A stretch of 64,000 bases of DNA from Fragilaria crotonensis (lineage: Eukaryota > Bacillariophyta > Fragilariophyceae > Fragilariales > Fragilariaceae). Each line of letters starts with the position of its first letter. Position 1 is the first letter of the stretch. A program made the position numbers and the translations under genes. The stretch spans positions 1 through 64,000 of the forward strand of contig JAKSYS010000016.1 of assembly GCA_022925895.1 (NCBI GenBank), written 5' to 3'. The notes under the pieces are model-generated. The model was not told the DNA's origin. It ran no database searches and worked only from the letters and a program-made list of their open reading frames with translations. This document shows, in pieces, positions 10,451 to 57,990 of the stretch.

Positions 10451-10799
10451 CCATGTGCCGCTCGGACAAAATGATCACCATTGGTAACGGAGCGCAGATC
10501 GCGACTCTCGGCCAAGGAACGGTCACAATGACAGATCAACATGGTGTTCTGGTAACTTTGACAGATGTGTATTATGCCCCCAAGTTTACTAAACATATTG
10601 TCAGCCTTCGCAAACTCATTGACGATGATTGGAAGCTGGACATTGCGGACAAGAGTGAATTTGTCTTGACGGATCCGGGCAGGGGAACGGTGGTTCGCTT
10701 TGCTCGACACGACAACGACCAGCTCTACTACCTTACGGGCATGTGTACTTCGAGCGACGAATCGGTACATAGCCTTACTACCCAGCCGGTAACGCTGGA

Positions 10800-13180: not shown

Positions 13181-13185
13181 CTAAA

Positions 13186-17890: not shown

Positions 17891-17899
17891 CGTCCCCAT

Positions 17900-23014: not shown

Positions 23015-24649
23015 CTAATGGAGTTTGACCTTGGCACTACCGCTTGCAGTCTTGATGGTCTGGATCTGCTTCTTGAATGCCACCATGGATGCAAAGATTA
23101 CGAGAACAACGACACTTGGGCCCATGACTGGTCCAACAAGACACTCGACGAAGTAAGAAAATAAAGCAATTCCGCAAAGTCCATAAAAGAGCACAGTTCC
23201 CAATGCTGTAGTGATGAAGCCACTAGCGCTGGAACGCATCCATGTGACGGCTTGTGCATAGGCACAGGTGAGATAGTTCCTTCCTTCCTGGTCCGCAAAC
23301 GAACCGAACCAAGGAGAGATCCCAAGAGATGCAAGCCGAATTGGACTGAGCCTCAAATGGCTGAAAGCATCGTGTGACATGATCTTGACGATTCCCAAGA
23401 AGTAGACATAGTCACTTGGTTGATCCAAGGAATAAGATACTGGGAAGACGTAGCTGGAGGCCACAACACCATCTACAGCAATAGTGCCATCGGCGGTAAG
23501 TGGTGCGAATACACCATGTTTCATAATAACTTCAATCTTGATGATCTCAAGCGCAGCTCGGGTGGAATCCGCACCGAGAAGGACATCACCAACCTTCAAA
23601 AAGGCAGGCACCGCAGGGATTTCCTGCTGATCGTAGAGAAAGACATAATGGCGTGGTGAAACCTCGAGTGGTGCAGAGGAAGCGTTGGTGAAGAGACGGA
23701 TATACTGAGAAGCCACGTCAGGTGACTTATGCCCGAACGCGTAGATTGGCTGGAATTTCCCACCCATACCTAAAACACGGTCGCCAATCTTGAGACTCCT
23801 CATTTCCACTTGACCGTTGCCTTCGAGCGTGACCATTGCGTCGCCAGGGAAGCATGGTGCTAGGGTAGGAGCTGCGGTAGGAGCTAGGGTAGGAGCTGCG
23901 GTAGGAGCTGCGGTAGGAGCTGCGGTAGGAGCTGCGGTAGGAGCTGCGGTAGGAGCTGCGGTAGGAGCTGCGGTAGGAGCTGCGGTAGGAGCTGCGGTAG
24001 GAGCTGCGGTAGGAGCTGCGGTAGGAGCTGCGGTAGGAGCTGCGGTAGGAGCTGCGGTAGGAGCTGCGGTAGGAGCTGCGGTAGGAGCTGCGGTAGGAGC
24101 TGCGGTAGGAGCTGCGGTAGGAGCTGCGGTAGGAGCTGCGGTAGGAGCTGCGGTAGGAGCTGCGGTAGGAGCTAGGGTAGGAGCTAGGGTAGGAGCTAGG
24201 GTAGGAGCTAGGGTAGGAGCTGCGGTAGGAGCTGCGGTAGGAGCTAGGGTAGGAGCTAGGGTAGGAGCTTTGGTAGGAGCTTTGGTAGGAGCTTCGGTAG
24301 GAGATTCGGTAGGAGCTTTGGTAGGAGCTTTGGTAGGAGCTTTGGTAGGAGCTTTGGTGGGAGCTTTGGTGGGAGCTTTGGTAGGAGCTTTAGTAGGAGC
24401 TGCTGTCTTCTTTTTCTTTGGTTTTCCAGGCACCTTCTTGAGGCCGCGGTCAATTTTCACAGTGCGGGATTTTTCGCTTGTGCGAGCAGAGTCGGCGGCA
24501 TCCTTGATCTCGACATTGAGGGCACCTTCAGTTGTAGCATCCAAGGTCACAACACTCCTGTCCTCGACGATGGAAACGGCATCTTCGACAGTCATGTCGA
24601 GACCTTGAACAGCAACGCCAAGGATGGCGAAAAGAATCGCGAATTTCAT
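23015..24649 (-). CDS. Secreted/membrane protein with hedgehog-type Hint (Hog) autoprocessing domain
   Basis: 544 residues. A signal peptide (MKFAILFAILGVAVQG) is followed by a short acidic domain, a basic GKPKKKK stretch, and about 180 residues of APTK/APTA/APTL repeats. A complete Hog domain begins at Cys266 (CFPGDAMVTLEG). His334 lies in VSPRHYVFLY, where hedgehog has TxxH (Ser replaces Thr). Residues 379-401 read GVFAPLTADGTIAVDGVVAS and then SYV, closely like the end of the animal Hint core, with Ser399 where animals have Cys. The next block, HDAFSHLRLSPIRLASLG, resembles the sterol-recognition start of hedgehog (HSWAHRAFAPFRL). Two hydrophobic spans (about 476-525) and a basic tail follow. 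In animals this domain cleaves itself through a thioester and passes the upstream part to a nucleophile such as cholesterol; here that activity is inferred. The start is fixed by the signal peptide. A frameshifted paralogue lies at 3992-5241. Confidence 0.88.
   Translation of the reverse strand: MKFAILFAILGVAVQGLDMTVEDAVSIVEDRSVVTLDATTEGALNVEIKDAADSARTSEKSRTVKIDRGLKKVPGKPKKKKTAAPTKAPTKAPTKAPTKAPTKAPTKAPTKAPTESPTEAPTKAPTKAPTLAPTLAPTAAPTAAPTLAPTLAPTLAPTLAPTAAPTAAPTAAPTAAPTAAPTAAPTAAPTAAPTAAPTAAPTAAPTAAPTAAPTAAPTAAPTAAPTAAPTAAPTAAPTAAPTAAPTAAPTAAPTLAPTAAPTLAPCFPGDAMVTLEGNGQVEMRSLKIGDRVLGMGGKFQPIYAFGHKSPDVASQYIRLFTNASSAPLEVSPRHYVFLYDQQEIPAVPAFLKVGDVLLGADSTRAALEIIKIEVIMKHGVFAPLTADGTIAVDGVVASSYVFPVSYSLDQPSDYVYFLGIVKIMSHDAFSHLRLSPIRLASLGISPWFGSFADQEGRNYLTCAYAQAVTWMRSSASGFITTALGTVLFYGLCGIALFSYFVECLVGPVMGPSVVVLVIFASMVAFKKQIQTIKTASGSAKVKLH
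23861..24405 (-). repeat. 12-bp coding minisatellite (Ala-Pro-Thr linker)
   Basis: About 45 tandem 12-bp units, mostly GGAGCTGCGGTA on the plus strand, with variants GGAGCTAGGGTA and GGAGCTTTGGTA towards the right. Read on the minus strand they give AlaProThr plus Ala, Leu or Lys. The central block is nearly homogeneous, which suggests recent expansion by slippage or unequal exchange. The length is always a multiple of three, so the reading frame is safe. Confidence 0.95.
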
Positions 24650-36075: not shown

Positions 36076-36273
36076 GCGCGGCTCTAATCCAATTCACGTC
36101 TGTGTTTTGACGAGCGTTGACAGTTAAAACGTGGTTATTCCCCTGTACTTTCTTCAACATTTTGAATTTCGTGCACTAATCGAGATTGTACAACAGTACT
36201 CGGACTACAGTACGTAAGAAAACGAGCTACAATAATGCAGTACTACAATAGTACAGTACCATTATTATTATTA

Positions 36274-37353
36274 GGGGAAATTACAATATCACGTATTTTT
36301 CAGCCACTTTTCAAAATAGTACAATGACCCTCTATCTACAACTTTACTCTTTACTATATAACAAGTTTGGATTTGACATTTACAATATCACGCATACATT
36401 TGTGCCGAAATTACTAAATCACGTTTTGTCGCCTGCCTCGCCCCGTTTCCACGGATGGTGTGGTACACCAAACTGTACTGATCATCAAGAATGATCAATA
36501 TCCACCATGTCTCCATGAGCTTGTTCTCACTCATTTCCTTGCCAATTCTTTGACTTCCAAGTCATCATCTGCTTGGGACTTGATCATCATCAAGACTCTG
36601 TAGTGGTCATAATTTTCTTTAGAAGTGTTTGATCAACAAATTTGTGTGATTATAAAGGCTCATGATGATGAACTTGTTGCAATTTATCAAGAGGCGCTGG
36701 TAGCGTATGTAAAGTTCTGGTATGCAGTGCGACATCAACAGGAATTTATCTTTCCCAAATGCCTTGTGACATTTGCACAGTTTTCAGGGGAGAAGAAATT
36801 CCCGTGAGTGTCATATTTCAAGATTCCTTTGAGTGTCTGAGTGTCATATTTCAAGATTCCCTAAAGTGTTTGCGGAAAGAAATGCCTATTGATGTTGAAC
36901 TGCATACAGGAACTTTACATACGCTACCAGCGCCTCTTGATAAATTGCAACAAGCTCATCGTCATGAGCCTTTATAATCACACAAATTTGTTGATCAAAC
37001 ACTTCTAAAGAAAATTATGACCACTACAGAGTCTTGATGATGATCAAGTCCCAAGCAGATGATGACTTGGAAGTCAAAGAATTGGCAAGGAAATGAGTGA
37101 GAACAAGCTCATGGAGACATGGTGGATATTGATCATTCTTGATGATCGGTACAGTATGGTGTACCACACCATCCGTGGAAACGGGGCAAGGCAGGCAACA
37201 AAACGTGACTTAGTAATTTCGGCACAAATGTGTGTGTGATATTGTAAATGTCAAATCCAAACTTGTTATATAGTAAAGAGTAAAGTTGTAGATAGAGGGT
37301 CATTGTACGATTTTGAAAAGTGGCTGAAAAATACGCGATATTGTAATTTCCCC
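36274..37353. mobile_element. Fold-back element with arms of about 465 bp
   Basis: The outer ends GGGGAAATTACAATATC and GATATTGTAATTTCCCC begin inverted arms that run to about 36740 and from about 36892, with few mismatches. A 150-bp centre carries two copies of GAGTGTCATATTTCAAG. Nine bases outside each end (TTATTATTA at 36265-36273, TTCTTATTA at 37354-37362) match at eight positions, like a MULE target duplication. There is no transposase. A frame on each arm (36625-36807 and its mirror) is an accident of the inverted repeat. Confidence 0.85.
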
Positions 37354-37362
37354 TTCTTATTA

Positions 37363-37851
37363 TATTATAATAAAATAACTCAGATATTGTCGTACTGTAT
37401 TTTCAAAAGTAATCGTATATATTTATTTTTTAATCCATGTACTGATGTAGCATTTGCGGTACATTAGAAAAGTACATGGTACAAATTTTTCAGTAGAAAC
37501 CTACACGGAAGAAATGTTTCACTGTGTTCAGCAATGTATATTGTATAATGTGGTACGAATCGTTGTGTAGAAAGGACAACAATTTTATGTACAAGTACTC
37601 CGTTAATGCGATATCCAGTTTGTTTGATCTGTCTAGAAATACTGGAAAATGTATTTTGAATTCCAGATTCCAATGCTCAGCAATGTTTATCTTACAATGC
37701 AGCAACATTTCACAGGTAGACCGATACGCTAGTACTGAAACAACCACACTATCAGTACAACAATAAACTCCGCCAGTAGCCCAGATTAAACTAAAGACTG
37801 TAAACATCCCGACAAAATCAACGCGGCCCGGGCCGCACATATCCAGTCTGG
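37363..37851. repeat. 489-bp tandem repeat, unit 1 (uninterrupted)
   Basis: It begins TATTATAATAAAATAACTC and ends with the palindrome GCGGCCCGGGCCGC, eleven bases, then CTGG. The second unit starts at 37852 and is split by the 12.2-kb transposon. This unit therefore shows the empty target site (ATATCCAGTTTG at about 37608). Confidence 0.92.
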
Positions 37852-38106
37852 TATTATAATAAAATAACTCAGATATTGTCGTACTGTATTTTCAAAAGTA
37901 ATCGTATATATTTATTTTTTAATCCACGTAGTGATGTAGCATTTGCGGTACAGTAGAAAAGTACATGGTACAAATTTTTCAGTAGAAACCTACACGGAAG
38001 AAATGTTTCACTGTGTCCAGCAATGAATATTGTATAACGTGGTACGAATCGTTGTGTAGAAAGGACAACAATTTTATGTACAAGTACTCCGTTAATGCCA
38101 TATCCA
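37852..38106. repeat. 489-bp tandem repeat, unit 2, left part
   Basis: It matches 37363-37611 with a handful of differences and stops at ATATCCA, where the 12.2-kb transposon begins. The right part of the unit continues at 50330-50561. Confidence 0.92.
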
Positions 38107-38119
38107 CATCTAAGGGCAC
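38107..38119 (+). repeat. Left terminal inverted repeat of the 12.2-kb transposon
   Basis: CATCTAAGGGCAC, the exact inverse of 50317-50329, preceded by target base pair CA. Confidence 0.9.
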
Positions 38120-38591
38120 CGATACGTAGGATAAAAATATATCCGAAATCTTCGTTTTCAGAACGAGGTCTATTTTTTAACGTATATATTTAGCATTTTT
38201 GTTGTAAATCGTGTTGAGGTACGCACAGTTTTGCGTACTCCTGAGTATACAACAACGTAATCCTGATACATGCAATTCATATTCCTGAATACATTCTTCA
38301 TCTTTATCAAAGAAGGACTCAAGTAAATACGTTTTATTACTGCATATACATTTACCTTAATAATACGTAAAACCCGATATCTGCTTTTCAGGTTGATGCT
38401 ATTTATGACAAAGTGTTCCTGAATTGGCGTGACGCGTTCTGCGGTGTATTATTATCATCTATCTGCAAAGAACTATGCGTCGTTAATAGTAACGGCTATT
38501 CATCTTTCTGAATCATTATAATGCATATTCCCTAAAACCATCACATAACACAACGTTGTATCTCTCTAAAGCCACACAACACGACGCATTG

Positions 38592-40050
38592 TTACAATGG
38601 CGTCATTTCGGGTCTACGATCGAACGCCTGACTCTTTCGAAGATCGTCGCGAGGTTTTCGCTTCTTTGCCCGTTCATTGTTAACCATGGGTGCGTGGGAT
38701 GATTTATTCTTCTGACGCCGTTTCTGGTGAACCTTCAACAACTCCTGATTGAAGGCGTTGCCTCGCAACTGACGATCAACTTCCACAAGATCGTAAAGCT
38801 CGTTATATTTTGCAATGCCATCGTCAGACCATCCAATGCCACCATTGGCTTGCTGCTGGCGACTAACGCGCGAATGCGTATACTTCGGAAGCTGTCGCAA
38901 AAGTGGGATGAATTCGTTAGGGTCGGGCGGGTTGTTCATTGGTCCACATTTACACACGAATAAAATCGTACTTACTGGCAGCTGTATTTCTGCTGCGTTA
39001 TGCATCAAAGGCATCACCTGCATGTTTGTTCGTAAGCAGGTTGACTCGAGCAACAGTTGGCAAACCGCAATAATGACTCACCATCTGCTTTTCCATTTGT
39101 AATTCTGCTGCCCAACGCGCAGCGTAGTTGACCAACACCAACAACATAAACGCTTCGTCACTAATGGTTAGAACATATTCCTGAAAATTGTCTTGATTGT
39201 CGCCACAATACTTGGCCATGAGGGCATCGTTGTTCCACACACTGCTAGAAACAATACAAGGGGCAAAGACATCCATCAACGCAATGTAATGGACCTGATT
39301 CTGTCGCATTTGTAGCATGTAGGCAATGTCGTCATCACTACCGGTAATCCTTTGGTAACCATTGATCTTGCCCGTTTCGCCATCTGTACAATCGGCATTT
39401 GTTAGTCACAAAACAGCATGAGATCTTTTTATTTGGATGGCACATACCTCGAAAACGTAAACGCATTGCTTTAATGCAGTTGTTGCGATGATTTCAAGAG
39501 TGCGTTTAATTTTCTTTCGTGTTTCGTGCCACCATTGCAAGTTTGTTTCGACAGACGAAACGTTGCAGTAATTACGCACCATACCACACACAGACTCCGG
39601 ATTGTAATCATAGTCCCCATGCAAGTCATCGTCAAAAAATTTAACTCTCCGAAACAATTGGTGCTTCACGCAGCCTGTCACTAAAACCTGCAACTGTTTT
39701 GTCGACACGCTCAATGTCATATCACACGGGGCATGGCTTACCGTTGGTTGTAACATGTGCCCACCTACCGCATCTGTTTCAAATTGCACACACATCGGCA
39801 ATGGTGAAACGCGTGCTTGACTTGTTGTGAGATCCGCCGTAATTGACGAAAAGCATCCATTTGATGCCGATGGTTGTGCACCACGTTGATGATGCTGCTC
39901 TGTGTTAGACGCTACTTTTATCGTTTGTTTTTCAGCAACCGCTGGAAGTTGAGCACTTGTCAACGAGGCAAGCAAAGCATTAGTCGGATCAATCTCCATG
40001 GTCCAGGCTTTGTTTGCAGCTGGTTTCCGATTCTGCGTTTTGCGTGACAT
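38592..40050 (-). CDS. Unknown transposon-borne protein with GWSxxGxxxYNEL motif, spliced or broken
   Basis: Three minus-strand pieces probably form one gene. The first (40050 to about 39448, 201 codons) is basic at its N-terminus and ends KQCVYVFE. A candidate 64-base intron GTATGT...ACAG follows (39384-39447); a later acceptor AAG at 39367 would keep the frame. The second (about 39366-38998) reads YMLQMRQNQVHYIALMDVF and LMAKYCGDNQDNFQEYVLTI. The third (about 39050-38592) has KYTHSRVSRQQQANGG, GIGWSDDGIAKYNELYDLVE and a Lys/Arg-rich tail. A frame change, spliced or decayed, separates the second and third pieces. I recall the GWS..G...YNEL motif from other algal element-associated proteins of unknown function. 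It is transcribed away from the small gene at 40253. Confidence 0.55.
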
Positions 40051-40252
40051 TGTGCATTTTTGTGTCTATCCGTTCAAAGCCACCAGGTCTTCTTGCGTGT
40101 CATTTCGTATAAATGTGTTGTGGCATGTAAACCTTTACGTTACCAATGTACGGGCTACACAAGCTTTGAATTGTTATGTTATTTTACATGTCTGAAATCG
40201 AGTATTACAGTATTTAAAACTTGCTTCGTTTACACGTCTGACGTGACCGTTC
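40051..40252. promoter_or_regulatory. Divergent promoter region inside the 12.2-kb transposon
   Basis: About 200 bp between the start codons of two outward-facing genes (40050 minus, 40253 plus). Its short length implies a shared promoter. No TATA box can be assigned with confidence. Confidence 0.35.
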
Positions 40253-40810
40253 ATGCCACCAAGAAATGGCAGCATCAATTTCAATTCCAGGGCCGCACTC
40301 ATGCTAAGCCACATGGAACATGCAGACGTTGCATCTATCGATTCCGCCACACGTCAAGCAATCATGACTTCATCACCCGCTGTTTGCTCATCACCAGTCG
40401 GTTCCGTAAGTTTGTGTCAAGAATGCCCCTCACCGGATGAATTTCACTGTTTTGATCTTCGGTGCTTTGTCCAGCCACTGCCCGTCATTACATCACAGAT
40501 GTTGGAGGCGTTTGCTGACGATATCGAATACGTCAACGAAACCGTATCAAATTCATTCAAAGAAGACAACCAATGTCCACGCCATGCTAGACAAACAGAA
40601 ATATCATTGATCAGTGGTTCCAAACCGCAATCAAAGCAAAATGTTTCCAAACCAAAATCGAATGATTCCATCTCTGTGTCTGTATCGCCGCCCAGCATAC
40701 ATTCCGAGAAACAAAACATGCCGTTTTTTCACTCTAACGAGTCGTATGCTTGTGATCATGGTACTTGTACCGCCCCAACGCCGTTGGCAAAGAAACGCAA
40801 GCTTCATTGA
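40253..40810 (+). CDS. Small unknown cargo protein with C-terminal basic tail
   Basis: 185 residues starting MPPRNGSINFNSRAALMLSH. The middle has a Cys/His-containing segment (CQECPSPDEFHCFDLRCF), then a Ser-rich low-complexity half, and the C-terminus PLAKKRKLH resembles a nuclear localisation signal. No known domain is recognised. It is divergent from the gene at 38592-40050 and inside the 12.2-kb transposon, so it may help transposition or regulate the element. The frame is uninterrupted. Confidence 0.5.
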   Translation: MPPRNGSINFNSRAALMLSHMEHADVASIDSATRQAIMTSSPAVCSSPVGSVSLCQECPSPDEFHCFDLRCFVQPLPVITSQMLEAFADDIEYVNETVSNSFKEDNQCPRHARQTEISLISGSKPQSKQNVSKPKSNDSISVSVSPPSIHSEKQNMPFFHSNESYACDHGTCTAPTPLAKKRKLH

Positions 40811-40829
40811 CGCGTGTTTTGTTGCGGGG

Positions 40830-41796
40830 TCAACGTTCACTGTTACACGATGATGCTGTACTAAGATGTCGAAGTACGAGGACTCCTCGATTGGTAGTAC
40901 TGACTACTGACTGGTGGTGTCGCACTTAGAGTGTGTACTACAGTACTGGAGTAGTACTCCACTACTCGGCATTAGATATTTTTAAATCTCGTTAAATAGT
41001 CGTTAAAAAGACGTTATTTCGAGCGATCTTGTTGTTGTTTGACAGCAAATGCACACAACCTGTCACCTTCAACAGCATACTTCACTCTCTCTTCACACCT
41101 TCCCATTGCCACCTCTTTTCTTCTGAACACCTCCTCTTGATCACCACCATCTCATTGGTCTTATTTGTGTGAGTTCTGTGTTTGTGTTGTTGTTTTTTCC
41201 CCCGTTTATGAATGGACTTCATCATTTTGCTGTTGTGTGAAATCGTCTTGTAACCCGGATATACGAAACTGCCCAGTGCACGTGATTTCTCAATGTCGGT
41301 ACAGTAGGTACCTACAGCAGTACAGTACTGTAGCACAGTACCGCATAACTCCGTACGCAGTATTGTTCTACTGTATCAAGGACACAGTGTTTGATCAGCG
41401 CAACCACTTTTACCGTCCGGTGTGTATACATTTCACACTCACTTCTCTTGTCCTACTTCACCACCTTTACAGTCCTTTGCTTCAACAAGCAACAAAGCAA
41501 GCAACCCTTTTCGAATACCATTGGTCATTCCTTTCGGAAAGACTTGTACCAAGAGTGGGGGCTTGGCGTTACATCTGTTTCTTGTGTGGACGCTGGTCAC
41601 CTGGGGAATCTTGCTTTATTCATTTAAAGTAGTGTGTCCGCACGTCGTGCCTAACCAGCAAAGCACCTGAGACTTAGTGGACGTCCTTGAGGTTGTTGAT
41701 TCAACAAATCCCGGTCATTCTCTAGTGACCGTCCCATTCTTGATACTTGTTCTTTGAAGAAAGGAAGATCAGCTACGAGATCCATTCAATTCAATT
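40830..41796 (+). promoter_or_regulatory. Long leader upstream of the GNAT-Ulp1 region
   Basis: Nearly 970 bp without a convincing gene precede the ATG at 41797. It is rich in CA/CT and TTCTT tracts near 41080-41160 and 41440-41520. The 155-codon frame at 41165-41632 has a Cys/Phe-rich composition and no domain. It probably holds the promoter and 5' untranslated region. Confidence 0.35.
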
Positions 41797-44700
41797 ATGT
41801 CGGTTAATACTGATGATGGATTGACAATAATGGCAACTGCTGCATCGCACGCTGATGCAGCAGTTCGTCTTCTTTCAACTGCGGCAAATTCTCAATCAGT
41901 CAATGCTGCAGCTGTTGAGACAAGGGATAGTGCAGCAAGCAATGCTTCACAAGTACATCGAGCGGTGCATGCTCTAACCACAACGAATTCTCCTACTTTT
42001 GAAGGATCTTTACAATTAGAGACAGGCGAAGAGAAAATGGAATCATACACAGACACAGCTTCATCCAGTCTGGGAGCTAAAGCCCCCCAAAGTTTGTCAT
42101 GCGACATGCCACTTTCTTCTTGGACATATCGCACCGATGCGTACTGCTTCACTGGGCTGTCGGAGCTACAAAAATTGCCAAGTGATGGAAAGCATTCTCT
42201 CCGAGGTGTTGTGCAACGCTTTAAAACGATACGTCGAGTGGGTGTGTTCGAAACGCAATTAGAAAGATTTAAAGGATGGGGCACGGACTTGCGAATGTGG
42301 CGCTTTCTTGAACCGAACGAAGGCGATAATTCAAAGTGGCTCTACAATATCGTTGTTGTCGATCCCAGGGCAACAGTTTTTCATGTTGATAAAATGAAAC
42401 ATGCGGAAGCTTCCTCGGCAAAGCTTGAATTCTTTACAGGTCTTGCAAGAAAGTTTTATTTAACCATGTTTGAGGCAAATGAGGAGAATACCTACAAAAT
42501 TGATCTGTCGCTGAATCGGGATACGACAGTTATGTTATTGGCATCGAAAGTTGGAAGCAAGGACTTGCCCAAATCAACATTTTATTTACGCAAACACGTT
42601 CATGTCGTATCAGCTGCATCGTATCGTTCTGTATGTCCTGATGAAAAAGATGATGACTCCAAGCCCTCTGGATCCATATCTCCGGCTACGTCTACGGCTC
42701 CAAAATCTGCGTCTTTGGACGACGCTGATAAGGAGACCAAGGAGACCAATGTCATGCTAACATGGTTGGCAGTTTCTGACAGGACACATCCGATGCCATC
42801 TATTGCTGCATCATGGCGTCGACAAGGGATTGGCCAGTTCATGTTTATACTCATTATCAAGCAATGTGCAGCATTCCAAGATGGAGTCAATATTGAAGTC
42901 TTTTTGCAATGCCATGAGCCGGGCGCATTCAGATTTTACTGTATGCTGGGCTTCCAACGACTCAATTCTAATCACGACGATGGTTTCACATTGCTTCCAC
43001 AGAAGTTGCAAGACGTCCTATTTGCAGTTCCACCGAATAAGAGAAAGGGAAGTCATCGACAATCTACATTTTCATTCTGGGGTGATGATCCCGAACAAGT
43101 TGGGCAATCCGCCACTAAGTTGATGCACCTGGGCCACCAACAATTACGAACCGTGATTGAAATTGACGACGATGGATCTGTGGTGGTGTTAGAAGCAACG
43201 AAGGAAGGCCTGCAACTGGACGAAAATGTTCACATACCCTTGAAAGCTACGTGGTGTGAGTATCCACCACCACGTTTTGGACCGAATGGGATTCGACTGT
43301 CGTATTCAATTTCTTTGATTGAAAAGCTTCTCAAAGGACTTCCACGCATTCAAGAACTATTACCTCCAACCTATGCAAACCCTGTGCCTGCGACATCTCT
43401 TCCAGTCAAAGGTCACATATCGATATTGCGAAGGATCATACATAGCCACTCTGAAGGCACAACTTGGATGTCATCTAGTGAAATGGACTTGATGGTTGCA
43501 ACTTTGATGCTCGACGGACGTTACGAAGATTCCGCTTTTGTAGTGCCGTTTAGTATTTGCGAAGGCATATCGATTGCCTTTGGTTCATACGTTAGGTATA
43601 AGAAGTTGTTGACGCAAGCCGCAACGCTTCAGGCAATGCTTGATGACGGAACTCGTTCCTTAGAAGACGTGGACGTGGTCGTTAGAGAGAATCTCGGACG
43701 TGAGGTTGCAGATGCATTGTCCGAATACAATAATCACATGAGCAACCTTCTTGTCAAAGTTGTCAGTCGGAATCCTGGTTTGCTTCAACGAAGAATAATT
43801 GTGTTTCCATTTCGTGAAGGTCGCGACCATTGGTCTGCCACGTTTGTGTTCAATGCCGATTCCATTTTTGAAAGCAAAGAACAAAGCGACTCTTCGTCGA
43901 ACACAGGGACAGTCCTGCGACCTTGCTTCTTTCGGTATTGCTCATTGCGCAATGATGGTACACGCAAGGTTGCATTAAATCAAGGTGTCATTTGGTTTTT
44001 GAACTTGTGTGCTTCCTACGAAATGCACATGAAGTCGAACCTGGGAAGTCAACGAATTACATTTATGGAACCTTTGGATCAAATACTGAAGGAGACATGT
44101 TAGGGACCGATCTTTTCCCGCACTGCGCGTCAACGAAGATGGATACTTCCCATTGCAGAGCGATGGCTACAATTGTGGTGTTGGTGTCTGTGCAACAATT
44201 GGAATATTGTTCCGTGAATTTCTCCTCGAAACGACGACTTCTTGTTTGATGATCTTTTTCCAGAGCAAACATGCCTACTTTTGTTGTGAAAACAGTGGCG
44301 AGATTTTTTGTCACATGCCGGTTAGCATAATGACCAAGCTTCCAGGTAATGACGATGCAGTTGGAGCGAAGAAGAAAAAGGAGAAAGACTACCTTTCTTC
44401 AGTAAGAGAGCAGTGGTTTACTTTGTTTGATCGAATGGCTGAATTTCAATTTGTTGGAGGTCCATATATGTTGGACAAGAAAATGAACCAAACATTGCGT
44501 ATGCTTCCACCATGGACTTACTTTCATGGCCTCGTGGTAAAAACGAATTATCTCAAGAGAGACAAAGGAGAAAGCTGCTCTTGTGCTCCGGCAGGCTAAA
44601 CAAGCACCTCCAACAAACCCACCTTTCGTTATGGTAGGAAGTGTTGTGGATTTGACCACACCAACCAAAATGACGCGAGCAGGACATGCAGGAGTTGTCA

Positions 44701-46941
44701 CGGACGTCACAACACCATCTGCTCATGTGCAGGGATCTGATACGAATAATGAATCAGACTTTGTGTTGCAAGATACAGACGATGAACAAGAATTTCAAGA
44801 AGCAAATTCAAGCAATGTCGACGGGTCCAGTAACGACTCAGCTTTTCGTTTAAAAAGCGAAGAAAAGAAACCAGAAATCGGGGATGTCAGGTTTGCATTC
44901 GTAACTCAAAGCCAAGTCAATGCCAATCCCGTGGCTGAAAATGTTGCTGTTCAAACAGCAACATATTCAGCCATCAATGAATTAGGTGATGATGTCACAG
45001 CTGAAATTAGAGATGTCCATGCAGGCAGCGAAGTCCAAAATGAATTCGGTGATAATGTCATGCGTGAGGACCAAGATGAAAGTCATGATATGGACCAAGA
45101 TGAAAATCATGATATTCACGAAACGATAGAAGTCACGAATGGTTTGGGTGAAAAGCAAGATGCTACCAGAGCCAGTGATGAAACTTCTGCCGTGTCCCCG
45201 CCATGTCATGAAACTACTGCGGACGATCCTAACAAGGTGACAGTAAAGTATTTGAAATCTTTCGATCCCAGACGTCTGCGAATACCCAAGCGGCCTTCAG
45301 AGGCAAAAGTGGATTGGATCAAAAGATTGAGACTTGGCTCTGATGATAACGAGGGATTCAAATCTTTAACAGAAAACCAAAAGAAAAGAGCAAGAAATTC
45401 CCGCAAAAAGCAAGTTGAGGAAGAGGAAAAACTTGACGCGATGGAAGCAGAGTACGAGGCTTCGTTGAGAAAGAAGATATGCACCCAATCTTTGAAATCT
45501 ATTAAAAGCTTCCAAGACAAGTATCGAACCGACCATGAGGAAGAAGAGCCTATGGTGAAACGCGATGCCGACTACGAACGTGAGCTCCAGCAATTCATTT
45601 CTGATAGTTTTGAGGCTTGGGGATGGGATTCCGACGAAAAGCATGAGAACCTAATATCTACATGGGCAGCGCAACTACACAACCCCGACAATACCGAAAA
45701 GGAACAACAGTGGATACGCACTCTTATAAAGGCACTGAAGGATGAACGAGCCACATTCAAGAAGAAGCTTACCAAAGAGTTTATGTTTACCAGGCGTTCC
45801 ATGGTAAAAGGTCTCAAATACGTGAGCAGAACCAACACTTTCAAGGCACGTTTGGTATTTTATGATGTTGATCCGGACAACAAAGATAATTTTATAGAAC
45901 AGGAAGAGGAAATGCAGGTGGATGAAGCTTGGGTCCGTGATGAATTTTCCGAAGAAGATGTTCAGCATATTATTAATATGCGCCTTGACAATACTTGGAT
46001 ACAAGCTCCGCGGGACATCGAGGTGTGGATCGGAAAACAAAAAATTGTTCGTGTGCGTTACACTGGACCTCGACAGATGCGCGTCATTGACAGTGAGGCA
46101 ATGACAAAGTATTTGAGAGAGAAGCAGAATAGACGTTCAAGTAGAGCTAGAGCGATTCGTCTGGCATTTAAGAAAAAGACGGGCAAAACCTTTAAAGGAA
46201 CAATCTTTGACGAAGAAGAAGATGACGAACCAGAGCCTCGCAAAACGATCAATATAAAAGAAAAGTGGGTCGGCAGAATGAACAATGGGAAAGAAACAGA
46301 CCTTGACGAGACTTTTGTCAGGAAAATTTCGGTGACGCCTTTGCTAATGAACTTAAGAGTTCGAAGAGAGGTTTCGTGGATGTTCCAGTTGGAGATTTTA
46401 AACATTCTCATCTGCATCTGCATCCTCATTTGGAGGTTCCTGGTGCCCCGACCGTACGCTTCACACAGAAGGATGGCAAGGATTTGTGCGTGTCGAAATC
46501 GTTAGCTTCAGCTCTTCACTCACTTGGATTTGAGAAAGAAGCCGCAGAAATAGATTTCTATGGTGAGGAAATCTTGAAAGGTGCTGTCGTTGATGCTCTT
46601 GATTGCGTGATGCTGCGTGCAAGGAAAATTCTACCTAAGTGGATTGTTATTGACAGGATCCCTAAAAGTTTTGATTGGCAGAAAGATCTATTGATGAGCG
46701 CCATATTTTGGTTGGTGTCTTGTACGCGTCTGACGGCAATTGTTCTCATGCGGTAACAATTCATGGAGGATTTGTGTATGACGCAAATGAAGTCGTTGCA
46801 CTCCCGTTGTGCCAAGAGGCACTTGATTATTGCACTTCAACAGCAGATGTGAAGAGTTCATTTGTTCGCTTTCGTCGTGGGTATTTCCTAAGGTACAAAG
46901 GGACAAAAAAGCACAAACTTGATCTGATGACGCTTGCATAA
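41797..46941 (+). CDS. Giant multidomain cargo region: GNAT acetyltransferase, Ulp1-type protease, charged middle, papain-like end
   Basis: About 1,700 codons from the ATG at 41797. Residues about 325-400 are a GNAT acetyltransferase: SWRRQGIGQFMFILIIKQCA is the acetyl-CoA loop, followed by FRFYCMLGFQRL. From about residue 670 an Ulp1/C48-like peptidase shows GRDHWSATFVFN (His678) and, at 44153-44190, LQSDGYNCGVGVC with the catalytic Cys; YCSL stands where DSL would supply Asp. A long acidic/basic middle (44700-46330) follows. The end has CVSKSLASALHSLGF (Cys at 46487), SHAVTIHGGFVYDAN (His at 46747, Asp at 46780) and FRRGYFLRY, a Cys-His-Asp order like papain-fold peptidases. The frame shifts by one base at about 44100, 44565, 46315 and 46678, with no intron signals there, so it is either decaying or has assembly errors. 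The role in the element is unknown; removing SUMO or ubiquitin-like marks is one possibility. Confidence 0.7.
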
Positions 46942-47054
46942 GGAACTACAATCTATGTGAATGATTTACATTACGTATGACATTCATTTGATTGCTTTAC
47001 ATTAAGTTGATTGCTTTACATTAAGTTTGACATTTAATTTCTGATCTTATTAAT

Positions 47055-49841
47055 TTAAGTTGAATTCTGTGATGGATAGTGATAGAGAGTGGTAAACTGG
47101 GCGGGCCACTCGTCATACGGTTTTGTTACCAAAACTTTTGAATCATCATCCTTAATGGAAACCACAAAACAAGGGGAATCAATTGCGTTGGGTGATATGG
47201 TCAGGTAGGTGCTTGACCAACTCCATTCTGTAAATAAAACGGAATCAATGTGCGACCGTTTCATTGCTGCCTGAACAACCAAAGCAAATCGCTCCGGGTT
47301 GTTTGGATCGTCATCCAATACAACAACGGCAGCTAATCGACAAGGACAAATACTATCATCATTGAACTGGACATTCATCCAATCGTAGACAGCTCCGCCA
47401 GATTGGTAGGCAGGATGACATCGAAAAGTATAAATGTGCCGCACATATTCAGTTGCAATGCGGACATGAAGACCAAAATGTTCAGTCAGAAACTCGAGCA
47501 ATGCTGTTGGCAATCGCATCCGTTGAAGGTCAGTACAGCTATGCCATACCACTCGAGGCACTCCAAAGACGCACGTCACGGTTGCAAACGTGGCGTGGCC
47601 AGACGTTTGCAAAATGGCAGATTCGGTTGTGTCGTCATCATCATCGCTGTTTACGTCGGAAACGCTTGAGTTATCGAAAACTTCATTGTCACCCCAGATA
47701 CGTGTGTGAACCAAATTAATGATATGGGAGTCTGCAAGTCGTTGTGCAGATTGCAGTTCATACAAAATTCCTGCATGTCGTTTTTGTGCCCGACGCCCAG
47801 GTCGTTTGGCTGCATAAATCAATAGCGATTCTGGTCGTTCGGCATTAAAGTTTCGTGGTGCCCCAAATCGTTCGATGTCATCAACAATGTGCAACAATTC
47901 ATGAAACTTTGGAAATTTCCAACAATTTTCCTTCATTGCAGGGATATTGTTTTACACAATTTTAATAACGCTTCGATCGACGAACGTGCCGATTGAATTG
48001 CGGTCGTGCTGTTGGAGCTGTCCCAAAATGTGTCCTGCATAAGCCAGGCATCAAAACAGAGAAGTGCTTCGAACACTTCAACAATGTTTTTCACAGTGGC
48101 AATGCTTCGGCGCTCAAACGTGTGGTCCAAAATATCCCAGCCTTCATCATATTGAGACAAAATAACAAATAGAAAACCAATCCGAGGCGTTCGCGCGCTG
48201 TTACCTTTGTTAGATTGGTCACCCACGGCTAAAATCGGTAGCCGGATATTTTCTGCGATACGTTTGCCGGTGGCGGAGATGAAATTGAATTGCAAGATTG
48301 TCCAAAGCTGCTTTGCGAGATACCGGAACATTTTCTAACACCAAAAAGGTAACGTGCTCAATTAAACCTTTGCGAAATGCATGCATGGTTTCCACAGGAG
48401 TTGCACCAAAGATACCTCGTACATGATCAGCAAGCACTTCGTCTTGAAAGGCATTGTGCACTGCATGTTGCGACCACCGTACACGAATTGCCTTGTCGTC
48501 ACTGGAGGCAATCATTGCCATTGGTGCGGCATACAAGTACCGACACGTAAAATAAGGAGAATCTAAATCTTCATAACTGACATTGCATGATCGACAGTGG
48601 CGTTGCACCTGCGGCGTGTGGGGGCCATAACGACCACATAGAGCATCCCCTTCTTGCATGTCTTGTATCACAAAAAGAATGCACGTAACAATATCAACAT
48701 GAATAGATCCGGTTGGTCCTAATGGTAAATGGACATTGCGTAGGCGCGAAGACGACGTCCGAAATGAGGATAGCACAACCTGTAACTGCGCATGATAGTT
48801 GCGAATGTTGTCACCAAGTTTGAATGTCTGATTTTGCGCAGAAGAAGTTTTTGGTTTTGGCAAGAATCCATGAAATCCCCATGCGGGGATGGTGCGTCGA
48901 AATGGCTCAGCAAATATGGCAGGAGTAAACATATACGGTTTGAGTGAAAATCGGTCATTCCCGGTGACAGATGTACGATCAATCCATTGTATGATTGGGA
49001 CAAAGAGTTGACGTTGAGGATTGGTAACAAGGCGTTGATACGCATCTTGATACACCTGACCGGACAAAGCTTCGCCTCGAACACCATTGGGACTGGTGTA
49101 CGGTCGCAATGGGTCCTGCACATCAATAAGGAGATTTTCCTGGGTCATAATGGTTCGATTTTGTAACAATTGTAACAGTTGAGGAACAAAATCAAATGTT
49201 ATGACATCACACGGAGGACCGTGTGGCACGTCAACCCTGCGTACAGATGGCAACAGCTGCGTGGCATTATTCATCATAGCATAAAGTCGATCAACATTCC
49301 TGCGATGTGTTTTGCCTCCTTCTGGTTGAAAGGAAAAGCCGTCGGCGATGGCCGCACGTGCCCATGTTAGAATTGCTTCGAAAGCATAGTCCGGTGCATT
49401 CATATCATTCAGAAGTTTAAGTAGTGCCACAGTCCACTTTTGGTTTGTTGAGAATGGAAAAGAGACAGGCGGAGGCGGCACTGCACAAGATTGGTGTGGC
49501 ACATTTGGTGGACACGGAACATGGTGAAAATTGCCGTCTTCAATTGGAAAAGCAGTTGATCCTGATGAAGAGAAATTGTCGTTTACAAAATCACAACGTA
49601 GCGGCACAGCGCGTTGAGAGCTTGCGTAGACGGCGTTAGCGTCTTCCGCCGCACGGTTTGTTGGGCAGGGCACCATAACGCAACTAGTGTCTAACGCGGA
49701 ACCTTTACCTGCAGACATACGGGCACGAAAGAAATGCCAACACGAAGTGGATTTTTGTAAATGCATTCCAAACGATTTCTCGCTTACAAACCGCCGACGG
49801 CGTCCGCTGCAGTGAGGATTGAGACAGACAAAAGATGACAT
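47055..49841 (-). CDS. CACTA/Plavaka-like transposase with N-terminal zinc finger, frame-broken
   Basis: It starts at the ATG at 49841 (the frame extends further upstream, but MSSFVCLNPHC opens the conserved part). Residues Cys6, Cys11, His27 and Cys34 form a CX4CX15HX6C finger. Further on are FVPIIQWIDRTSVTGNDRFS, DALCGRYGPHTPQVQRHC, RGIFGATPVETMHAFRKG, then FELLHIVDDIERFG-type text near 47900 with ERPESLLIYAAKRPGRRAQK. These blocks match a large diatom transposase family that I know as Plavaka/EnSpm-like. Frame changes of one base occur near 48235 and 48195 and around 47940, with no good splice sites. With these the protein would be about 920 residues. It reads towards the cargo region, and the two 3' ends nearly meet at 46941/47055. 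Confidence 0.72.
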
Positions 49842-50316
49842 GACAAAAGAAACAAAACAATATCTCAGCAGCAATCGTGCAACCAGAAACGGATGCAAAG
49901 TGGCAATTAGTAACAAGGCGAAATACTGGTTGTGGTGGCTGCTCTATCAGGCAAAGGCAATCAGTGTGATAGAGTGCCATTATAAACCTGATCAGAGATT
50001 CAGATTCCTGAACTCACACTCGTAGTAACCGAGAACAAAAGCACAGATTTCATTAACAAAAATCACGGAATAATGAAATTGTTGCAGAAAATGAACTAAA
50101 CGCGTAAAACTTGGTATCATTACGTACGTATGAGAATGATTAACTTCATACCCCGGCATATGTATTGCGTATGTAAGAAAACAATGAATAACGGCTTTTT
50201 AATTTACTCAGATTTACGCAAACACATCACCGAATAACGAACGGAATACATACATATGTAGTTTAATTCATTTAAATGAAAAAAAACTTAAGTTAATAAT
50301 GTTGAACCTCATCCTT

Positions 50317-50329
50317 GTGCCCTTAGATG
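50317..50329 (-). repeat. Right terminal inverted repeat of the 12.2-kb transposon
   Basis: GTGCCCTTAGATG, the exact inverse of 38107-38119, followed by the duplicated CA. Confidence 0.9.
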
Positions 50330-50561
50330 CAGTTTGTTCGATCTGTCTAGAAATACTGGAAAATGTATTTTGAATTCCAGATTCCAATGCTCAGCAATGT
50401 TTATCTTACAATGCAGCGACATTTCACAGGTAGGCCGATACTACTGAAACAACCACACTATCAGTACAACAATAAACTCCGCCAGTAGCCCAGATTAAAC
50501 TGAAGACTGAAAACATCCCCGCAAAATCAACGCGGCCTTGGGCCGCACATATCCAGTCTGG
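50330..50561. repeat. 489-bp tandem repeat, unit 2, right part
   Basis: It continues the unit begun at 37852 and matches 37610-37851. It ends with the hairpin GCGGCCTTGGGCCGC, eleven bases and CTGG, followed by T, as in unit 1. Confidence 0.92.
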
Positions 50562-51890
50562 TTGTATAAATTTAAAAAAATTCAACTAATTATAGGGCAT
50601 TGTATCCAGCCTTGTGTCATGGCAGTTTGTGTTGTCAACAACTAATACAACTATGCATGTTGAGAAATATTCAATAATAACAAGTCGCTCAATTTAACCT
50701 GCTACCACTATGCCTAAGATGAAGGCATTTGACTACTAACATAGATAGGCACTACACTGGTGGGATCTTCAGTCATTTTCCATTGGGTGACATCGTCATG
50801 ACAACCAAATTAAAGAATTTTCTCTGATAACAAGTCAATAACTTTTCCAAAACAAGATAGGCACATGAATCGCCACCAATTTTGGTGACTCCTACTAGGG
50901 AATGTTGGTTGTGATTGGAAATGTCTTGATGTGACTACTGCTGAACTTTTGTCTCGTACTGCATTGAATGAGGATGTCAGTACTAGATCTCTGTTAGCTA
51001 ATTGCTGGCGCATTTCGCGTTTTGCGGCCTCTGCTTGGGTGATCTTGAAGTGCCCGTGTGTCTCTTGATTCTGCTGTCTCTAAAGCTGTACCATTGTTCC
51101 AAACATATGAGTTGGATTAAATTTGCCTGCCATGCTGGTGCTGAGCTATATTGATCGAGCGAGGTCATTGTGTCAGCACCTCATTGAGGCAACAAGTAGC
51201 ATTGCTGGTGTTGACTCCATCCCATGCTAAATCTCCTCCAAAATAATGGGGCCCATCCAATCCTGTTTTGTTGTATGATTATGTGTTGCACTGTGGGGTG
51301 ATTGTTCTCACCACATATTGGTTCAGGAGCAGAACCAGCACTGGTATAACCCGCTTATCCAACAATAGGGCAGCACAAGAAAGCAGCGGGAAGGTGTTTG
51401 ACTGAAGAAAGAAATTCCAAGTTAAGTCCAATCAAGAACTGATTGTGCTATTCTACTATGCAATTGCTAAGCTCAGCACAACATAAAGTAGTAGTACTAG
51501 TAATGCTGTGGCTGGAAGTGATCCTTGTGCATTCTTGAGTGGCTGCGCCCCCCCCCAAATCACACCATTGATTTCCGCCATCACATTTGTTTGCTTGATA
51601 AGGAGCTTGACCACATGAGTATGGGCCACTAAAGTCTGGTGAATTATTATAGAATGAGCTTCCCAGTTGATCACTTTAAGGGTAGACAGATTCCATGCAT
51701 TCTTTTGTCAAAGGTTTTGGCAAATGCCCCATGAACAGTAGTTTGTTTATCCACCAGTGATGGGCCAATTGGGGAGGAATAAATGGACTCAAGGAGGCAT
51801 GAGAACAATCTGACAGAATGCTCTCAGTATGTTACTGTCTTACTGTAGTACTGTATGTCATTACGTTGAACGTGAAGACATCAGTACTGT
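50562..51890. other. Spacer without a supportable gene
   Basis: AT-rich DNA with short frames only. No domain, terminal repeat or RNA gene was recognised. Confidence 0.35.
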
Positions 51891-54349: not shown

Positions 54350-57300
54350 CGTCCCCGCCATTGCCGACACCGGTAGTACGGCACACTTCTGCACTATCGA
54401 TGCACCCGTCATAAACCGACGCCCAACATCGTGTCCGATCTCCATCCACACACCTGGAGGCACCATTTTGACTTCAACGCATGAAGCCGAATTGGACTTG
54501 CCATTCCTTCCACTGGCGGCTCGTCATGTCCATATTGTACCATCACTTGCCACCGCCTCCCTCCTTTCCATTGGTCAATTGTGCGACGCTGGTTGCGTTG
54601 CCGAATTTACAGCCACCACATTGACAGTCACCTTTCAACACACCATTGTACTTACTGGCACCCGTACCCTTGCCACACGCCTGTGGCATGTGCAGTTACC
54701 CGCTGCAAGCCCATCCCGCGTCGATCATTCCGCATTCTCCGCCATCGGCTCTGCCACACCTGCCCAACTCGTAGCATTTGCCCATGCAGCACTCTTCTCG
54801 CCGGCCCTCTCTACGCTTGACCAGGCTCTCGCAAAAGGATACCTCACTAACTTTCCTGGCCTCACCCGTGAACTCCTCCGCAAACATCCACCTCATTCTC
54901 CTGCCATGATCAAAGGCCATCTTGATCAGAGTCGCCAACACCAACGCTCCACCAAGCTAACTCAAGGATCGTCCGGCGCCCCCATCCTGGAACTCGAACA
55001 CGACAACGAGGCCTTTCCTGCACCAGACGACGCCCTCCCTCCTGGCGCACGTTCTCACTTTTGCTACGCCGCAGTCATGGAACCTACCGGCCAAGTCTAC
55101 TCAGATCAAACTGGGCGTTTTATCACGCCATCAAGCACTGGGAATAACTACCTTATCATTGTCTATGACTATGACAGCAATTGCATTCTCGCAGAGCCAA
55201 TTCGGGATCGCAGTGCCAACGCAATTCTACAAGGCTATAAAACCTTGCATACCCAGTTATGTAATGCAGGTCTCCGCCCTGCTCTCCAACGCCTAGACAA
55301 CGAATGCTCCGCACCGCTCAAAAGTTTCCTTCACGACGAGGGAATTGACTTTCAGCTTGCACCACCCGGTGTCCATCGCCGCAATGCCGCCGAACGTGCT
55401 ATCCGCACCTTCAAAAATCATTTCATAGGGGGCCTTTGCAGTGTCGACAAACACTTCCCCCTCCACCTCTGGGATCGTCTCCTCCCCCAGGCTCTTGTCA
55501 CACTCAACCTGCTTCGGAGCTCCCGCATCAATCCAAAGCTGTCCGCTTGGTCACAGCTCCACGGGCAATTCGATTTCAATCGCACTCCCATTGCTCCCCC
55601 CGGCATACGCGTACTCGTTCATGACAAGCCTGCTACCCGCGGCACCTGGGCACCCCACGCACTGGACGGCTGGTATGTGGGTCCTGCCTCGACTCCTACC
55701 GCTGCTACTCTGTCTGGATGTTCGACTCCGCGCAACTCGAATCTCCGACACCCTCGTCTGGTTTCCGACACAGATCCCGATGCCCATTGCATCCTCCACC
55801 GATCTGGTCCTTGCGGGCATTGCCGACATTCACCATGCACTCTCCAATCCATCCCCCGGCTCCGCACTTGCGCCCACTACTGCTAGTCAAGTCGCTTCCC
55901 TTAAGCTCCTCACCAATCTCCTCAGCAACATTTGCGCTCCCACGGCTACACCACCGCTGCCAAGTCCACTGCCGGCACCTTCCCCAGCCGCGCATCCAAC
56001 ATCACCGCTCCTCGTGCACGTCGACGACGCTACCGAGCCCGCACCCGTACCCCTCACGCCACCTCCACTGCCTCCGACCGCAGTCCTTGCCGCACCTCTG
56101 AGGGTGGAGCTGCCACCATCCCCCCCCTTGTCGAGCGCGCCCATCACATACGCTACCGCCACACGCCGGTCACGACGTCGCCGCAAACCACCCGCCCATC
56201 TGGCCGCCACAGCAGTCACCGCCCACTCTGCCCATCCCGCCCACTACGCGCTGCACGGCAATGCATTCAATCCTGATACCGGCCAACTTGCCGAATATCC
56301 GGAACTCAGTCGCAGCAGCGAAGGGCCCGAATGGATCGCATCCATGACCGACGAATTCGGACGCCTCTGCCAAGGCCACGCAACCATGCCCACCGGCACA
56401 AACACCATGTACTTCATTGCCGTACGCGATATCCCTAAACATAAAAAGCCAACGTACATTCGCGTCGTCGCAGCCCTACGGCCCGAAAAAAGCAACCCCC
56501 GTCGCGTTCGCATCACTGTCGGTGGCGACCGTATCGAATACGATGGCAACGTCAGCACCAAGACAGCCGACCTCACTACCGTCAAAACCATGCTCAACAG
56601 TGTCATCTCTACCGTGAATGGCCGCTTCATGACGGGCGATCTGAAAGACTTTTATCTCGGCACACCCATGACCGAATATGAGTATATGCGCATCCCCATC
56701 TCCATGATCCCTCCCGCAATCATGGAACACTACCAGCTCACGCCACTCATTCACAACGGCCATGTCTATGTCGAGATCCGAAAAGGCATGTACGGATTAC
56801 CGCAAGCTGGCATACTGGCAAACGACCGCCTTGCCGAATTCCTGAAACCCCACGGCTATAGTCCTGTCCCCCTCACCCCCGGCCTCTGGCGCCACGCCTC
56901 CCGTCCGATCGCCTTCACACTCGTCGTCGACGACTTCGGGGTCAAATACACACGCCGCGAAGACGCCGAGCACCTGATGAACTCCCTCCGCTTACAATAC
57001 GCCGTCTCGGAGGATTGGACCGGCGCGCGATACTGCGGCCTCACGCTCAACTGGGACTATACCCGAGGCACCGTCGATATATCCATTCCCGGCTACGTTG
57101 CACGGGCACTTAAACGCTTCGAACACACAACACCCACTGTTGCCCAACATTCCCCCCATGCGTATATCAAGCCCACCTTTGGTGCCAAGCAACAGCTCAC
57201 ACCACTGCCGGATGCATCACCTGCCCTTGACCTCGCTGACACCAAACGCGTCCAAGAAGTGCTCGGCACGTTCCTCTATTATGCTCGTGCCGTTGACTCC

Positions 57301-57990
57301 ACCATGCTAACTGCCATCGGCACACTCGCGACACAACAGGCCCACGGTACAAAATCAACCATGCACGCCCTCACGCAATTCCTTAATTATGCGGCAAGCA
57401 ATCCCGAGGCCACTGTCCGCTACGTGCGCAGCGACATGGTACTCCACGTTGAAAGTGACGCCTCCTACCTCTCTGCTCCCAAGTCACGGTCCCGCGCCGC
57501 TGGCTACCATTACCTAAGCAGTCGCCCTCCCGATCCAACCAAACCGCCTCCCGCCAACGCCACTCCTCCCCCTGGAAATGGCGCCATTAATGTCCTTTGC
57601 CAAATCCTGAAGGAAGTCGTGTCCAGTGCCGCCGAAGCCGAGCTCGCCGCTTTATTTCACAACGGGAAAGAGGCCTGTCCCCGCGTACCTGCCTTGAGGA
57701 ACTTGGACATCCCCAGCCCCCCACTCCTATCGTCACTGACAATAACACGGCCGCCGGTATCGCCAACGACACCATGAAACAACGCCGCTCTAAGGCCATC
57801 GACATGCGTTTTTACTGGGTCCGTGACCGCGTTCGCCAAGGTCAATTCATTGTTTACTGGCGTCGCGGTGCACTCAACAAGGCCGACTATTTCACGAAAC
57901 ATCATCCTGCCTCTCATCACCAAGAAATTCGATCCAGCTATTTGCATGCCGTCACGAATCCGTCACGCAATTACTTTGAATGTCTTCAAG
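54350..57990 (+). CDS. pol: Element C: protease, integrase, reverse transcriptase and RNase H region
   Basis: Protease site AIADTGSTAHFCTI near 54360; integrase with SSTGNNYLIIVYDYDSNCIL near 55130 and GVHRRNAAERAIRTFKNHF near 55370. Reverse transcriptase has GDLKDFYLGTPM near 56640, IRKGMYGLPQAGILANDRL near 56780 and the catalytic FTLVVDDFGVKYT near 56920. RNase H has VESDASYLSAPKSRSRAAGY near 57450, and a tail resembling KADYFTKHHPASHH near 57880. Copia order; part of a fossil with a few breaks, boundaries approximate. Confidence 0.82.

Follow-up and report, generated by a model that had tools for sequence, protein, structure and literature searches.

A diatom Plavaka-type transposon carries a predicted GNAT, Ulp1-like and papain-like accessory gene with relatives on PIF/Harbinger-type elements

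A complete Plavaka-type element and its accessory gene

We analyzed a stretch of 64,000 nucleotides of the Fragilaria crotonensis genome (assembly GCA_022925895.1, contig JAKSYS010000016.1, positions 1 to 64,000; C87:1-64000 in our contig numbering), hereafter the window, and found at positions 38107-50329 a complete Plavaka-type DNA transposon of 12,223 bp. Along with its transposase gene, the element carries a giant accessory gene (41797-46941, + strand, ~1,715 codons, frameshifted here) with a predicted GNAT domain, a conserved middle region, an Ulp1-like domain, a linker and a putative papain-like domain. Regions of this gene match many other places in the genome searched (62.1 Mb in 881 contigs) at 27-100% identity. 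The Plavaka-type assignment and the length follow from the ends, the target duplication, the empty site and the PF18759 transposase. The left terminal inverted repeat, CATCTAAGGGCAC (38107-38119, + strand), is an exact inverted match over 13 bp to the right one (50317-50329, - strand), and a target-site duplication, CA, stands on both sides (38105-38106 and 50330-50331). The unoccupied site is preserved next to the element, in a tandem duplication of ~489 bp (37363-37859, then 37852-38106 plus 50330-50569): the transposon is inserted in the second duplicate and the first represents the empty site, at about 37617. When the flanks were joined and compared with this empty site, 475 of 499 aligned positions were identical and a single CA remained. 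Adjoining the tandem duplication is an inverted repeat (36263-37364) with 485-nt arms, 96% complementary, and a 132-nt spacer, which looks like a foldback element.

Comparison with other copies by BLAST gave the same boundaries. Alignments to the window started at 38107 (C454), 38106 (C2) and 38101 (C589) and ended at 50329, 50329 and 50331 respectively; the C589 copy is internally deleted, and of its left flank just 8 bases lie within the examined stretch. A fourth copy, on C664, is ~92% identical to the window element. At four insertions with differing flanks we found the termini CATCT..AGATG and 2-bp target duplications, namely CA (window), TT (C454), TA (C2) and CA (C589). The transposase gene (47055-49943, - strand), convergent to the accessory gene, is broken into frames of 574, 133 and 298 aa, and the frame at 48219-49943 (- strand) matched PF18759 at E=7.1e-10 (39 bits against a cut-off of 26.3). 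The C-terminal transposase parts, separate frames in the window, are fused in a single frame in locus L013. The PF18759 profile, the 2-bp duplication and the short CATC..GATG-type ends are shared with PlavakaB as characterized in parts of a study of fungal transposons (PMC12730594), which gives 2-3 bp duplications and CATCA..TGATG-like ends; the fifth terminal base of the window element differs from CATCA. The same parts describe Plavaka families of two Agaricales species with a TET/JBP gene. The hosts there are fungi and here a diatom, and the words 'ulp1', 'acetyltransferase' and 'protease' do not occur in the main text of that study.

A first-pass annotation of this DNA had proposed a giant transposon gene from a series of protein motifs, all of which were located on the + strand, in the order given and between 42814 and 46791. 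They comprise WRRQGIG (42814-42834) and FRFYCMLGF (42928-42954) for the GNAT domain, DHWSATFVF (43825-43851) and LQSDGYNCG (44153-44179) for the Ulp1-like domain, and DGKDLCVS (46472-46495), DGNCSHAVTIHG (46732-46767) and VYDANE (46774-46791) for the papain-like domain. The set goes beyond chance resemblance because the regions have matches throughout the genome, the GNAT profile leads to solved acetyltransferases and dN/dS is low. That these motifs belong to one continuous gene stood only in part. In the window the gene is split into five frames (41797-44103, 44090-44599, 44541-46505, 46307-46756 and 46675-46941). The window element and the C2 and C454 copies are ~99.7% identical and are separated mostly by single-base length differences. 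The C2 copy holds a frame of 1,077 aa with GNAT, Ulp1-like domain and linker start, and one of 702 aa with the remaining linker and the papain-like domain. A window frame of 654 aa spans the C2 break, its residues 1-130 matching the 1,077-aa frame and residues 131-595 the 702-aa frame. Since this frame bridges the two C2 frames, every junction between domains is open in one copy or another, and none of the copies read holds the whole region in one frame. Similarly, in another subfamily, L013 has an open frame of 1,414 aa that extends from GNAT to within the linker, and L014 one of 567 aa that runs from the linker through the papain-like domain. We infer from these overlaps a single product of ~1,715 residues, although an intron or separate genes may underlie the breaks.

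Domains of the accessory product

The GNAT domain (42508-43035, + strand) contains WRRxGxG and FYxxxGF motifs. GNAT enzymes hold acetyl-CoA with a loop of the form R/Q-x-x-G-x-G/A. In the aligned rows the first R and the first G of the RRxGxG loop were kept in 14/14, the second R in 13/14 and the second G in 13/13; here and below, the rows compared are not independent, near-identical copies being among them. A profile built from 11 GNAT regions (A8) matched NAA50 in PDB at E=2e-5. Among 30 chains listed at E up to 1, 25 bear the names of acetyl- or acyltransferases; the other five comprise MAEA, KacT, two BH1408 entries and a 'transcriptional regulator'. In Pfam, 10 of 13 members reached Acetyltransf_10 at E up to 5, the best at 2.9e-5. 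When five members were tested singly, L017 scored above the curated cut-off of this family (24.5 against 23.6 bits) and L013, L014, L016 and L022 below it; the window copy alone was sub-threshold in Pfam (E=0.061). Together with L045, a more distant relative discussed below, these matches bear out the earlier prediction of a GNAT fold, and we regard the assignment as well supported.

The Ulp1-like domain occupies 43753-44543 (+ strand). Members of the Ulp1 family share a hydrophobic strand, HW, a second strand and Q...CG, with a catalytic His-Asp-Cys triad and an oxyanion Gln. The same order of strand, HW (at 43828), strand and Q...CG (in LQSDGYNCG) was found here, and CFFRYCS (43924-43944) stands where a canonical member has Asp-Ser. 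The His was kept in 16/16 rows, the nucleophile Cys in 15/15 and the Gln in 12/14, the latter two each in 11/11 once frameshifted or fragmentary rows (L018, L020, the first L025 frame and the first L034 frame) were set aside. The domain is named Ulp1-like, and membership in the C48 family was rejected, because the C48 profile stays below its threshold and the position of the catalytic Asp is taken by Cys. We suspect that its proteolytic activity is altered or lost.

In the genome as a whole, 63 pieces matched C48 (Ulp1) at E up to 1 (for example L035-L044). Several have identical scores, and the pieces perhaps represent other families of transposons. DDE_Tnp_4-like genes lie ~5.5 kb from the pieces on C509 and C631.

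A charged linker (44544-46253, + strand) with a conserved part leads to the papain-like domain (46254-46941, + strand). For this linker, profile A2 found a match in the Harbinger-borne locus L032 (E=1.5e-10, computed for a small ORF set). Papain-like peptidases of clan CA show the residue order Gln, Cys, His, Asp/Asn. The corresponding signature, Gln-Cys...His...Asp-x-Asn, suggests a papain-like fold for the domain. Its Gln and Cys were present in 14/14 rows and its His, Asp and Asn in 13/13; of 15 rows in total, L027 was dropped as lacking the domain and L018 stops before the His. This domain is the most conserved part of the product, with 45-69% identity to the window family among Plavaka-type rows, where the GNAT-Ulp1 region of members beyond that family has 26-36%. 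An OTU identity was considered and rejected, a comparison with five OTU fragments of the same genome being insignificant. A viral origin was likewise set aside: profile-guided scans of viral contigs gave 75 and 42 pattern matches and no relatives, and a search of phage-record proteins with the domain found no relatives either. The papain-like domain is a conserved family, without a name in the libraries searched, that occupies ~72 places in the genome.

Recurrence across the genome and a second carrier

Throughout the genome we found at least 87 match pieces for the GNAT-Ulp1 region, at least 104 for the papain-like domain and at least 88 for the transposase, all lower bounds. The modules were tallied from 69 GNAT-Ulp1, 104 papain-like and 67 transposase rows, the papain-like rows being merged by hand to 72 places. 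At 43 of the 72 an Ulp1-like region precedes the domain on the same strand, at most 7 kb upstream. A GNAT region is present at 26/72, and all 26 also have the Ulp1-like region in the same order, as the first-pass annotation had proposed for the window gene. A convergent Plavaka transposase follows within 6 kb downstream at 51/72 places, and at 11/72 none of the three (GNAT, Ulp1-like region, transposase) was found. A variant arrangement was seen on C253, where one frame joins the C-terminal transposase part to the middle and Ulp1-like regions. The earlier part of the transposase stands immediately upstream in the same orientation (PF18759, 28.9 against 26.3), the linker and papain-like frames then follow on that strand, and GNAT was not found at this locus. 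The shared frame therefore ties the module to transposition.

Where it could be measured, the module is under purifying selection, with dN/dS below 0.6 at unsaturated dS. For GNAT, 15 of 36 pairs had dS below 1.4, and pairwise dN/dS was 0.10-0.31 in 12 and 0.47-0.51 in 3 of them. Values were 0.21-0.27 for the Ulp1-like region (3 of 36 pairs), 0.20 for the middle region (1 of 15) and 0.10 for the papain-like domain (1 of 28); the remaining pairs were saturated, near-saturated or too similar for a value.

At four of the 11 lone papain-like places (C312, C317, C687 and C55), a diverged protein with GNAT is encoded upstream in the same orientation. The GNAT of C312 (L045) passes the cut-off of Pfam PF00583 (25.1 against 20.7 bits). 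A search of the whole genome with the window-family papain-like domain reached C687 at E=1.1e-17, C317 at 4.7e-17 and C312 at 1.9e-16. Similarly, profile A2, in which C312 and C687 are not included, matched ORFs of C312 (3.2e-33) and C687 (2.7e-32), with a separate match to the C312 linker at 1.5e-10; these values were computed for a small ORF set. The value of 1.8e-57 for L032 and those of profile A4 are circular, L032 and L033 being in the alignment, and were not used as support.

The transposase at these loci is of another type: DDE_Tnp_4 was matched above the cut-off at C312 (E=4.7e-13) and C687 (E=1.2e-16), and the same sequence is also present in C317. At C55 a transposase of this type was not seen. 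The C312 element (37167-48457) has imperfect GGACAT... ends with CAG on both sides, and the C317 element (61933-79098; 17,166 bp) has CTG on both sides, its interior being known from matches. At C687 the left end only was found; on C505 the sequence of the C687 left flank runs as far as CAG and goes on with no element inserted, resembling an empty site as read from the left side only. The DDE_Tnp_4 transposase of C312, C317 and C687 and the inverted ends with 3-bp duplications of C312 and C317 are features of the PIF/Harbinger type. PIF/Harbinger transposons have a second protein with a Myb/SANT domain. We found no Myb/SANT match in the neighbouring ORFs scanned, which cover part of the ORFs present. 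A second protein bearing this domain is described for Nuwa in parts of PMC12730594.

Overall, two superfamilies in the same genome, Plavaka and PIF/Harbinger, carry homologous coding regions of the form GNAT...linker-papain. Only GNAT, linker and papain-like domain are claimed as common to both carriers because the comparison of the middle regions was insignificant; homology of the Harbinger-type middle to the Ulp1-like domain, a likeness seen by eye, is not claimed. In L032 the linker-papain ORF (1816-3528, - strand) starts with a Cys/His-rich stretch that appears PHD-like by eye and was not seen in the Plavaka-type gene; a profile scan of this stretch gave no match.

Possible roles of the accessory gene and remaining features of the window

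Transposons with deubiquitinase- or deSUMOylase-like genes are known. For the gene reported here we propose, with a probability of roughly 40%, an accessory factor whose role is to edit proteins of the host or the transposase. The proposal draws on the protein-acting kinds of its domains, its position on the strand opposite to the transposase at 51/72 places and its presence on two carrier superfamilies. Its targets would be proteins, either those of the host or the transposase, and not DNA. Most likely the Ulp1-like domain, its triad altered, would dock onto conjugates of the SUMO or ubiquitin-like type, cutting would fall to the papain-like domain, in which the Gln-Cys-His-Asp/Asn set is complete, and GNAT would acetylate the same or neighbouring proteins, such as histones, the transposase or silencing factors. 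Modified, silenced chromatin or a modified transposase could in this way be reset and stay permissive for transposition. Such targets, and a purpose in anti-silencing, repair or processing, are inferred.

The module would then be the protein-modification counterpart of the TET/JBP enzymes carried by several unrelated types of fungal transposons. As portrayed in parts of PMC12730594, those are one accessory enzyme gene across several transposase lineages, as here, but encode a DNA demethylation enzyme, unlike the protein-modifying domains of the window module. A more specific version, which we put forward tentatively and hold less probable than the general one, is that of a new anti-silencing or licensing module, composed of an acetyltransferase, an altered Ulp1-like reader and a new papain-like family, exchanged between Plavaka and PIF/Harbinger in diatoms as a protein-level analogue of TET/JBP. 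An ordered and constrained module with an acetyltransferase on two carrier superfamilies offers a testable case in which the accessory protein, not the transposase, is under selection, and gene sharing among elements suggests a common tool for acting on proteins.

Related systems share single aspects of this arrangement. Ginger1, according to parts of PMC2836005, is a DNA transposon with an Ulp1-type domain, as here, but its OTU or Ulp1 domain (pfam02902) is fused C-terminally to a Gypsy-integrase-like transposase, unlike here; 'acetyltransferase' is absent from the text of that paper. CryptonF and CryptonS of oomycetes, CryptonS also occurring in one diatom, are stramenopile transposons, some with an extra C48-peptidase protein. 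In their description (PMC3212892) they are tyrosine recombinase elements, unlike the window element, 'acetyltransferase' is absent and the 'GNAT' hits shown are the word 'gnathostome'. The main texts of PMC12477816 and PMC11244446 contain neither 'acetyltransferase' nor 'Ulp1'. Among the papers listed by searches of the open-licence PMC literature, none describes a GNAT, Ulp1-like and papain-like combination in its title or abstract start; that its parts would also occur in a second superfamily had not been foreseen.

Several results weigh against a protein-editing factor. The Ulp1-like region was not detected at 29/72 papain-like places and GNAT not at 46/72, for which contig ends, and a scoring confined to the best candidates, may in part account. 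Within the window family the C2-C664 pair indicates weaker constraint, with dN/dS of 0.39 for the middle region and Ulp1-like side, 0.54 for the N-terminal part up to the GNAT start and 0.32 for the linker up to the papain-like start. The prediction of an Ulp1-type protease did not hold. Pfam C48 was matched below cut-off in 2/13 and 2/20 members (best E 0.11; L016 11.4 against 20.7 bits), and among the 16 PDB sequences listed for the Ulp1-region profile at E up to 10 none was C48, these being a chaperonin subunit and a viral non-structural protein, with a best E of 0.1. Compared profile to profile with 10 C48 fragments from this genome, the region showed a short match in the right Cys-motif register, insignificant at E 0.13. 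The catalytic Asp position is Cys in 14/15 rows, the exception being the frameshifted L025. As for the second cysteine-peptidase pattern of the first-pass annotation, its residues are kept in every row holding the domain, and no profile of a known peptidase family was matched. Pfam gave weak single-member matches only (best 0.0053), PDB no significant match (best 1.4 and 0.51) and NCBIfam none; in PHROGs the window family had 0 matches and L033 and L034 weak ones of unknown function. Finally, the Harbinger-group region between GNAT and linker has no significant similarity to the Ulp1-like domain, and the comparison of Harbinger with Plavaka-type GNAT profiles was moderate (E=2.5e-4, probability 43%).

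Two other explanations seem unlikely to us, to about the same degree. The first takes the product for a self-processing polyprotein, in which the papain-like domain would be a maturation protease cutting the giant protein and, in C253-type copies, the joined transposase part. The great length of the product, the conserved papain-like residue set and the C253 arrangement, where the transposase part is read in one frame with the middle region and the Ulp1-like region, followed on that strand by the linker and papain-like frames, all favour it. The opposite-strand Plavaka transposase at 51/72 places, however, leaves no fusion that would need cutting there. The second sees the module as an aid to DNA repair or timing, which would modify the transposase or proteins of repair while excision is under way or once it is over, instead of countering silencing. 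Parts of PMC2836005 propose such a role for the Ulp1 and OTU domains that Ginger1 transposases carry, and carriage by two transposase types fits a general help in transposition, but the sequence has no feature that separates a repair aid from anti-silencing.

That the GNAT-Ulp1-like and linker-papain-like parts are encoded by two or three adjacent genes and do not form one protein is somewhat less probable still. The lack of a copy with the whole region in one frame and the distinct GNAT and linker-papain ORFs of the Harbinger-type C312 speak for it; against it, the breaks vary in position among copies, as the 1,414-aa frame of L013, the 567-aa frame of L014 and the window frame across the C2 break demonstrate. 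Captured host gene fragments, carried as passenger DNA without function, would fit the many frameshifted copies, including that of the window, but were rejected as highly improbable on the same order at 26 places for all three domains and at 43 for Ulp1-like plus papain-like, the conserved motif residues, dN/dS below 0.6 in measurable pairs and the reappearance of GNAT, linker and papain-like domain in elements of another superfamily.

Besides the accessory and transposase genes, the window element contains a second accessory coding region (38592-40065, - strand; frames of 219, 135 and 161 aa) with no function assigned. Its 219-aa frame has relatives of 38-39% identity in L019 and L021, and a Pfam scan of the frames gave no significant match. 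A 185-aa ORF (40253-40810, + strand), an ORF call only, has no Pfam match and no function assigned. Outside the element, the window holds two Copia-type retrotransposon coding regions with RVT_2, gag_pre-integrs and zinc knuckle (9394-13188, + strand, and 13861-19122, - strand), another RVT_2 match below the cut-off (55441-57777; 26.3 against 31.6 bits) within a stretch of 58% GC, and an ORF (23015-24649, - strand) in which a Hint module (E=1.9e-22) is accompanied by a PT disordered repeat. Silicon transporters are known outside diatoms as well as within them. In the genome searched, their family (PF03842) had 19 matches, the best at E=4e-193, and the light-harvesting family PF00504 had 61, both of which point to a probable diatom host. 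At C97:29749-33762, three silicon-transporter repeats lie within a single frame of 1,456 aa.

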